Below, one piece after another: positions 35,384-41,742 of a DNA stretch of 49,607 bases. The notes under the pieces were generated by a model that worked only from the letters and a program-made list of their open reading frames with translations, did no database searches and was not told where the DNA came from. Numbering within the stretch: the stretch's first letter is position 1; every line of letters begins with the position of its first letter. The position numbers and the translations under genes are program-made. Origin of the DNA: a virus; IMG/VR virus record IMGVR_UViG_3300007755_000001, positions 1 through 49,607 of that record; one strand, 5' to 3'.

Positions 35384-37096
35384 TTATACTTGTCCAATCA
35401 CTTCACTAAAATCAACACCAGTCTTTGTAGCAACAAAGTTTAGTGTGATAAAGTTAATTGATTTAGATGGTTTAATGAAAATACTAGCAACAAACTCGTT
35501 ACCGTCAATAACTTCTGGTGTATTGTTAGTGCTATCACACTGTACATAGAAGTCATACATTCCCTGTTTCGCTTTAATGCCAGCAAGATATGGATTAACC
35601 ATATTTCTGAAATTAGTACGAGTGAATTCATTATTGAATTCAAACAAGAAGTATTTACTAGAAATTGCAATCGCTTTCTCAAGAATGATAAACAATCTAC
35701 GTACATTGATTCTATCAAATGCAGAAGGTTTAGTCAGTAGTGTGCGATCACCCCAAAGAACAGTACCTTGACCAGGGAAAGTTACAATTGGATTGATTCC
35801 ATAAGGAAGCATATACAATTGGTCTCTATGTGCTTGAGTTGGCTGGTATGCTAACTTAACAACACCCTTAATCTTACCACGATTCAGACCACCTGGTGAC
35901 CACCAAGCATCACGAACTGAATCAGTATGAGCCATAAGGCCAGCAACATCAGCACTGAATCCAATCCAGCGATATGTGTCATTATACTTATCGTATGTGT
36001 ACTTATAGTTACCGTCAAGAGTACCATATGAAGATGCAACATTGAAACCAACATCAACTCTCCAGTCTTGTACATTATTTACAGCATTAGTAGCACCACC
36101 AACATTAACAACCTGCTCTTTTGGAGGTGATAAAGCGGCAATACAATCTTTACGTGCTTCTGCAATAGACTCTACCATATACTTCTCAACAGCAGATACG
36201 GTAGCAGTAGGCTCGTTAGAAACACCGCCAGCAATCAATAGACTAACATTGATTTCATCAGCGTTTACAAACTTGTCCCAGCCAGCTTGATATTCGTTAA
36301 TACCAACAGTACCAGCCGCAACAGCAGGAACCCAAGTGTTTCCAGCACCTTCACAAGCAGTCTGATCATCAGCAGAACCATCGTCACAGTGTGCATCAAC
36401 ACCAGCAGAAACAGCGATACCGCCACTAAATGCAACAGTGCCTGGTCCAGAATTAGTTACCTCACTTGCGTTAACCCATACTAGCTTAGATTGTTTATTG
36501 ATAACTTCTTCGGCAAAGATATTAACACCCATAGTGTCTCTTGTACCTTCGGCAGTACCTACAAGATAAGATTCTACCACTTCACCACCAACGATAACAG
36601 CAACAGCCATTTCATTATTAGATGGATCAGGTTGTACATCAAATGCACTTGCAAGTGACCAAGCACTCCAAGTACCATCACCTGAATGAGTTTCTACTGA
36701 AATTCCGTTACCATATGTACCAGGATAGCGGGCATAAAATCCCTCTGTCAAAGTACCAGAATCTTGTTGTGTTTCAAAATCTTCTTGTCCCTTAATTTGT
36801 GTTACGTTACCAGAAGGGGCAGCATTCATAGCACCCTCATCAACAACACGCATAACTTGAAGTGAATTAGCATACTTCAAGAAGGCCGCAGAAGAAAGAA
36901 ACGCTGGATATGTATCATTGGTTGGCTGACCGAAAACACTAACTAGATCATTTTCTGAGGTGCAAAGATAAGGCTCATCGCAAGGTCCCCAAGTAAAACG
37001 ACCAACTGTAGCACCTAAAGAGGTAGCAACCGCAGGAATAGACGTAGACAAATCGATTTCTTTCGTTTGTACGCCTGGGCTTAATTGAAATCCCAT
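35384..37096 (-). CDS. 18: Tail sheath protein gp18
   Basis: This 570-residue protein (T4 gp18 has 659) has the N-terminal SPGVQTKEIDLSTSIPAVAT, WGPCDEPYLC and a C-terminal domain with GDRTLLTKPSAFDRINVRRL and FIKPSKSINFITLNFVATKT, all typical of sheaths. It contracts during infection. Residues 237-255 are a Cys/Trp module (C-x10-C...TW) shared with gp13 in this window and not part of the usual sheath. AGGAGA lies upstream, and a late promoter is 63 nt away. Confidence 0.95.
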   Translation of the reverse strand: MGFQLSPGVQTKEIDLSTSIPAVATSLGATVGRFTWGPCDEPYLCTSENDLVSVFGQPTNDTYPAFLSSAAFLKYANSLQVMRVVDEGAMNAAPSGNVTQIKGQEDFETQQDSGTLTEGFYARYPGTYGNGISVETHSGDGTWSAWSLASAFDVQPDPSNNEMAVAVIVGGEVVESYLVGTAEGTRDTMGVNIFAEEVINKQSKLVWVNASEVTNSGPGTVAFSGGIAVSAGVDAHCDDGSADDQTACEGAGNTWVPAVAAGTVGINEYQAGWDKFVNADEINVSLLIAGGVSNEPTATVSAVEKYMVESIAEARKDCIAALSPPKEQVVNVGGATNAVNNVQDWRVDVGFNVASSYGTLDGNYKYTYDKYNDTYRWIGFSADVAGLMAHTDSVRDAWWSPGGLNRGKIKGVVKLAYQPTQAHRDQLYMLPYGINPIVTFPGQGTVLWGDRTLLTKPSAFDRINVRRLFIILEKAIAISSKYFLFEFNNEFTRTNFRNMVNPYLAGIKAKQGMYDFYVQCDSTNNTPEVIDGNEFVASIFIKPSKSINFITLNFVATKTGVDFSEVIGQV

Positions 37097-40929: not shown

Positions 40930-41742
40930 TTATCCTACAATGAAGTTGACAGGTAGTTCGTAATTAAGTGAAAATTCTTCTTCGAGTTTTTCAATCTCTT
41001 CTTTTGCTTCATCCCAAACTTGCTGACCATTTATAGTGATACCACCAGGAAGAGGCATACCGTCAAACTGCTTCATATTTGCTCCCCACTGTTGTTTAAT
41101 CAATGCAGTAGCATATTTCTTGACCCACTCATCATTATATACATCAATTGCATAACTATTGGCTTCATCAGGAACGACTGCTTTCCACGCTCTCACAAGC
41201 ATTGAATTACCAACGCTCCAAGTCTCTCCAGCCGCTTCACAGGCTGTTTTATCTGTATATGATACATCAGAACACTTAGGGCCTATAATCTTTCCAGAAT
41301 GCGAATAGAGGCGATTGGTTGCTTTATTAAATGTGAAAGTTCTATCGAGATTAAAATAACTATTGACCATCTCCAGATGTTCCATCGTTATTTCGTAGTA
41401 TTGCATACTAACCTTAGTCATATCAAACATTTCATCATACATAATTCTATAACGCACATCAGCCATCGCCTCAGAAGAATACTTCCCAGGCTCATAGATT
41501 CGTGTAACAGCAATGATATCATCATCAAGTGTTATAAATTGATTTGCCTCATCTATAGCAGTGAATTCGATAGTAACAAATTTCTCTTCAACACCATCAA
41601 AGTGTCTTTCAATAAATAGTTGGAGAGCATCATCAATTCTATCATACGCCTGAGTATCATCAACTTGAATCTCTACTTTTGGAGATCCTAATTTACGATA
41701 TGCGTAATCCCTTAATTCTTCTGCTGATTGTACTTTAGCCAT
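40930..41742 (-). CDS. 13: Head completion/neck protein gp13
   Basis: This 270-residue protein (T4 gp13 has 309) has DYAYRKLGSPKVEIQVDDTQ, then IDDALQLFIERHFDGVEE, characteristic of gp13, and a C-terminal GGITINGQQVWDEAKEEIEK. Residues 157-175 (C-S-D...T-A-C-E-A-A-G-E-T-W) are a small Cys/Trp module also found in gp18; it interrupts the segment between KIIG and NSMLVRAWKAV. It seals the portal vertex with gp14. Its start overlaps the end of the membrane protein gene at 41735. Confidence 0.88.
   Translation of the reverse strand: MAKVQSAEELRDYAYRKLGSPKVEIQVDDTQAYDRIDDALQLFIERHFDGVEEKFVTIEFTAIDEANQFITLDDDIIAVTRIYEPGKYSSEAMADVRYRIMYDEMFDMTKVSMQYYEITMEHLEMVNSYFNLDRTFTFNKATNRLYSHSGKIIGPKCSDVSYTDKTACEAAGETWSVGNSMLVRAWKAVVPDEANSYAIDVYNDEWVKKYATALIKQQWGANMKQFDGMPLPGGITINGQQVWDEAKEEIEKLEEEFSLNYELPVNFIVG

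Follow-up and report, generated by a model that had tools for sequence, protein, structure and literature searches.

Two virion proteins encoded in a T4-like tail and neck gene block, which occupies the minus strand of the window (the whole stretch of 49,607 nucleotides analysed here, from IMG/VR virus record IMGVR_UViG_3300007755_000001), have a short Cys/Trp segment in common, raising the question of what this segment is and how it came to stand in both. One of them belongs to the T4 gp18 tail sheath family, as indicated by the sheath domains PF04984, PF17482, and PF22671 and by a T4 gp18 fold, and the other to the T4 gp13 neck/head–tail adaptor Ad2 family, as indicated by phrog_211 and a T4 gp13 fold (Table 1). 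The segment is probably one copy of a recurrent tailed-phage mini-domain, with the consensus C-[ST]-x(9)-C-E-x-A-G-x-T-W, which is set in loops, pinned by a disulfide, and related to its other copies by common descent.

Table 1. Position of the two carrier proteins, the sheath insert, and the modules in the window.
Feature	Position	Strand	Evidence
gp18, tail sheath protein, 570 aa	35384..37096	-	PF04984 2.4e-20; phrog_23 1.8e-128; Foldseek to T4 gp18
Whole gp18 insert relative to T4 gp18 (approximate)	36293..36391	-	phmmer alignment to PDB 9mkb gp18
Cys/Trp module in gp18, residues 237-255, CDDGSADDQTACEGAGNTW	36332..36388	-	Translation; absent in 537-aa sister-clade sheaths and in T4 gp18
gp13, neck protein/head–tail adaptor, 270 aa	40930..41742	-	phrog_211 2.2e-36; Foldseek to T4 gp13 9mkb E 1.5e-14
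Cys/Trp module in gp13, residues 157-175, CSDVSYTDKTACEAAGETW	41218..41274	-	Translation; absent in 247-aa, doubled in 292-aa homologues

The Shared Segment in gp18 and gp13

A first-pass annotation of this DNA had claimed that the two segments have 12 of 19 residues in common, and both alignment and a shuffle test agree with it. The segments are identical at 12 of 19 positions without a gap, and the same 19 residues form the best local alignment between whole gp18 and whole gp13 (score 74; the highest score among 1000 shuffles was 62, giving a Gumbel p of ~6e-5), which confirms a resemblance well above chance. The residue limits given in that annotation are correct, while its start of the gp18 segment, 36329 instead of 36332, lies one codon past the Trp codon, a trivial difference. 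The DNA similarity that it saw between the two sites is modest (38 of 57 bases identical, with the same codon at nine of the 12 shared residues) and gives no sign of recent copying between the two genes. In both copies, ten residues separate the two Cys, and Gly and Trp follow the second Cys at a distance of four and seven positions, respectively. The gp18 module reaches an i-E of 1.1e-10 with the module profile described below, a value obtained for an identical copy. No third full match was found in the annotated reading frames of the window.

Insertion, Gain, and Loss

The segment is an insertion in both proteins. In a phmmer alignment, gp18 residues 236–268 fall between the aligned T4 gp18 residues 352 and 355, a site near the junction of T4 domain II, which extends to residue 345, and domain III, which begins at 346 (PMC3004832). 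Among IMG/VR sheaths, those at ~80% identity to the window gp18 have the segment and a length of 570 aa, and those of a sister clade (~66–71% identity) are without it and 537–539 aa long. The earlier remark that homologues lack the segment is therefore accurate for T4 gp18 and for sister-clade homologues but not for the closest relatives.

With regard to gp13, homologues among the IMG/VR relatives are 247, 270, or 292 aa long, corresponding to zero, one, or two modules at one shared site, which reads RLYSHSGKIIE-GNK without the module and RLYSHSGKIIGPxC...TWxxGN with it. Pairs of gp13 that differ in module state are 85–97% identical in their flanks and have clean junctions, at which no target duplication was seen. 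On a tree made from the gp13 columns outside the module, by a quick method that leaves many branches weakly supported, there are at least five changes of state. The module comes and goes as a unit, complete with both Cys and Trp: all three are present in 27 gp18 rows and none in 21, and the corresponding numbers for gp13 are 33 and 19. It was also observed that the gp13 of cyanophage S-CAM9 (L274 3001-4122) and that of a distant viral contig (L149 342-1322) have another insert near residue 65, larger than the module and distinct from it, which implies that gp13 tolerates inserts at several sites.

The relatives without the insert, whose flanks are intact, bear out the first-pass placement of one module in two otherwise unrelated virion proteins. 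As an objection to this placement, the segment could be ordinary lineage-specific loop variation, a normal part of both families with a coincidental resemblance; all close relatives of the window gp18 do have it. This possibility is nevertheless hardly credible: it is at odds with the shuffle test and with the absence from the sister clade, and is already refuted by the repeated presence of the segment in the unrelated carriers described below. Within the window, the gp13 and gp18 copies each track the orthologues of their own gene, and concerted evolution between them was not seen; together with the modest DNA likeness, this leads us to reject recent copying from one gene to the other.

Recurrence in Unrelated Virion Proteins

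Viral contigs were collected by means of a DNA pattern that encodes C-E/D-x-A-G-x-T-W and thus covers the second half of the motif; a strict pattern spanning the whole module matched no viral contig. Most of the long-ORF matches also have the first Cys, most frequently exactly 11 positions ahead of the second, a feature that lay outside the search pattern. Thus, the second half of the motif was selected in many carriers, and the first Cys and the C-x10-C spacing were not. A module profile detected 184 modules in 173 ORFs at i-E <1e-3, counts that are not frequencies because the loci are partly motif-selected. These ORFs fall into 25 carrier groups, i.e., groups without BLAST similarity after module masking, a number that exceeds that of the true families (gp8, for example, is counted twice). 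Reversed sequences gave nothing below E 1 with this profile. The pattern C-x10-C-x3-[GS]-x2-W occurs in 218 of 4661 ORFs and in none of the reversed sequences. A profile trained on the gp13 copies alone gave 62 non-gp13 hits below 0.01 and no reversed hit, and training on gp18 alone was weak (17 hits below 0.01, the best at 2e-4).

By family search, the carriers comprise sheath, neck, sheath stabiliser, gp8, minor tail L, TipJ, and baseplate wedge proteins, in addition to large structural proteins. Three of them were collected independently of the motif pattern, namely the gp15-like sheath stabiliser/terminator (L148), a 2517-aa gene of a conspecific contig, and gp10 of T4-like phages. In TipJ-type proteins from viral contigs, the module lies between VPSNYxP and YSGxWDG, a site at which TipJ of Bcep176, Vibrio NF, and Flotzy has only a few residues. 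A clean insert that is absent from homologues is found in gp13, gp18, gp10, and TipJ. The module has been inserted recurrently into unrelated virion proteins, and the check that the first-pass annotation had proposed, a search for insertions at varied sites in unrelated proteins, is borne out by the varied sites of the module in many such proteins; the profile recognises it in ~25 carrier groups.

Several other observations were made on the collected loci. Proteins of 415–510 aa with two modules each (L215 135-1388, L216 1325-2851, L270 183-1424, and their kin) are weakly tape-measure-like. The core C-E-A-A-G-G-T-W is present in proteins of Methyloceanibacter, Woesearchaeota, and marine archaea, in which the first Cys is often missing (L285, L300, L306, L314, L316, and L320). 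In the Pelagibacter phage Mosig (L273 3880-8965), several putative oxygenases are encoded between tail fibre and neck genes, along with a ferrochelatase, a heme oxygenase, and a bilin reductase.

Further copies occur in the virus itself. A 99-kb contig (G001), which shares >99.9% identity with the window across gp13–gp18 and extends past its end, encodes just beyond that end one module in a 1198-aa protein and six in tandem in the 2517-aa structural protein (L337 10202-10336; G001 42872-50422), i.e., seven more copies in two genes of a conspecific contig. Two of the six modules are identical over 57 bases, and the identity ends at the Cys and Trp codons, with entirely different linkers. This identical pair recurs in a second contig; in a third, the copies differ slightly. 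The identity is explained by a recent duplication or by gene conversion limited to the shared module, and the pair shows that whole modules within one gene can undergo duplication or conversion.

T4 gp8 and gp10

When the module of a marine gp8 was used as a tblastn query (E up to 10), 1047 records were obtained, with T4-like gp8 at the top (3e-3). The corresponding segment is GMCSIASLTDKDECLKLGGKWTPS in T4 gp8 (PDB 1N7Z) and HCVGADSDDEVECSVLGGTWEQS in T4 gp10, the latter reading FHCVGADSDDEVECSVLGGTWEQS in 5HX2/5IV5. Similar to the window copies, T4 gp8 (PF09215) and domain 3 of gp10 (PF22670) have a C-x10-C-x3-G-G-x-W or C-x10-C-x4-G-x-W segment, which the module search reached, but L-K-L-G-G and S-V-L-G-G stand where the module has E-x-A-G. 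The two proteins are unrelated to gp18 and gp13, and their segments are modelled only as parts of gp8 and gp10. Both Cys are present in each of 31 gp8 sequences, and Trp is missing only from a single record, which is truncated. For gp10, both Cys and Trp were found in 29 Tevenvirinae-type rows and none of the three residues in 3 KVP40-like rows, from which the segment is cleanly excised. This loss agrees with the report that, of the Cys residues of gp10, Cys555 alone is conserved throughout the T4-like phages (PMC3004832). The presence of the module in T4 gp8 and gp10, missed when it was first described from at least two virion proteins of the window, indicates that it is widespread in T4-like phages and not peculiar to the window phage.

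Common Descent or Convergence

Common descent of the module copies is likely. It might be argued instead that unrelated loops separately reached the same Cys-Cys-Trp clasp, since few short sequences fold by themselves, and that no common ancestor existed. The motif is indeed short (19 residues with about six fixed positions, so that it cannot by itself decide against convergence), the gp18 and gp13 copies have no special closeness in DNA, and the cellular proteins with the core are scattered and often without the first Cys. On the other hand, the matches in unrelated proteins reach beyond the clasp, e.g., to C-[ST]-[DI] and to the Glu after the second Cys, the gp13-trained profile detects members of other families at 1e-10 to 1e-5 but nothing below 1 among reversed sequences, and whole units are cleanly gained and lost. 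Convergence is, on this evidence, rather unlikely.

Under common descent, the copies would derive from one module that was spread by rare illegitimate recombination; once in place, the copies would have been passed on by inheritance or exchanged through homologous recombination in their flanks. The description of the module as mobile or copied fits the recurrent insertion and the gain and loss of whole units; it does not extend to recent copying between gp13 and gp18 or to a dedicated mobile element. The features of an autonomous mobile element are target-site duplication, terminal repeats, and an enzyme of its own; the gp13 junctions have no duplication, and a module of 57–70 bases cannot encode an enzyme. 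A bolder reading, plausible but tentative, is that the module is a true shuffling mini-domain: copies of one ancestral cassette would be transferred by recombination between virion genes that are not homologous, and would serve as exchangeable knobs for docking or stabilisation. Such a mini-domain would perhaps extend from T4 to marine phages and from the neck to the fibre tip, never having been named.

Predicted Fold and Possible Role

Independent AlphaFold models of gp13 and gp18, which rest on 24–29 sequences and have a moderate pTM of 0.60–0.65, predict the same pattern: a short strand, a loop, a helix turn with the second Cys, a turn, and a short strand with Trp. In gp13, the elements are E156-157, H165-170, and E175-176 with pLDDT near 80, and gp18 residues 235–256 match them with a mean pLDDT of ~80. 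The insert in the gp13 model joins strands 144–147 and 180–188 and thus forms the tip of a beta-hairpin. The module appears to occupy loops, with beta-hairpin tips as the clearest cases, and the insertion sites suggest that it is exposed on the surface.

The likeliest role is that of a disulfide-pinned mini-fold that would extend loops and make contacts. The two Cys are expected to pair after release of the particle from the reducing cytoplasm, Trp being packed close to them; the rigid knob so formed would lengthen the loop and contact neighbouring subunits, fibres, or the host surface, leaving the core of the carrier undisturbed. Of the two ways of holding such a knob that the first-pass annotation had offered, disulfide or metal, the former fits the joint retention and loss of Cys, Cys, and Trp and the predicted compact mini-fold. 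Metal binding is very unlikely: the window copies do show an enrichment of Cys, Asp, and Glu, yet across the carriers only two Cys and no His are conserved, the acidic residues vary, and a zinc-type knuckle would have four conserved ligands.

An alternative to the stapling role, which competes with that role only and not with recurrent insertion, is that the module is chiefly an adhesion device, a receptor- or glycan-binding knob spread for holding hosts or surfaces. The presence, close to the adsorption apparatus, of carriers such as TipJ, minor tail L, baseplate, and large structural proteins is consistent with this, as is the tandem array of six modules in the 2517-aa protein. However, the module occurs equally in the sheath, neck, and sheath stabiliser, which as a rule do not bind receptors, and is strictly conserved in T4-like gp8, an inner wedge protein, so that a mainly adhesive function seems unlikely. 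In T4, gp8 is positioned slightly inwards in the dome (PMC3004832). Its strict conservation argues for a structural role there, and the coming and going of the module in sheath and neck for an accessory one.

Relation to Known Systems

No curated stand-alone Pfam, NCBIfam, or PHROG model for the module was found; PF09215 and PF22670 touch it only as whole-protein or large-domain models and are below cut-off outside gp8/gp10. A 27-column alignment profile had no match in the PDB, whereas the marine gp8 query does match T4 gp8, which means that short-profile PDB searches are insensitive. The sole PDB matches of a single module, designed 'Pizza' repeat proteins, were rejected as an artefact of summed weak repeats. 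Searches of the open literature gave no prior description of the motif or of a Cys module in phage structural proteins; the loop may have been noticed earlier within gp8 or gp10 as single proteins.

The nearest analogues are the Ig-like accessory domains of phage structural proteins, which are likewise small, dispensable, recurrent in unrelated virion proteins, and variable between close relatives. Ig-like domains have ~80–100 residues and are often terminal, whereas the module has ~19–25 residues with a Cys pair and is mostly internal, in loops. A disulfide-rich virion is known from phage Milano, whose contractile tail has cysteines in sheath and baseplate, and its notable bonds join subunits and block contraction (PMC10811340). 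In contrast, both Cys of the module belong to a single short insert, for which an intramolecular bond is the simplest reading.

Because T4 gp8 and gp10 carry the module and have solved structures (1N7Z, 5HX2, 5IV5, and 9MKB), its fold and contacts are directly checkable. Exchange among virion proteins is usually thought of in terms of whole domains. If true, a unit of ~20 residues that can be inserted into sheath, neck, baseplate, and tip loops would rank with the smallest exchangeable parts known and account for many of the Cys pairs in phage tails that carry no annotation.
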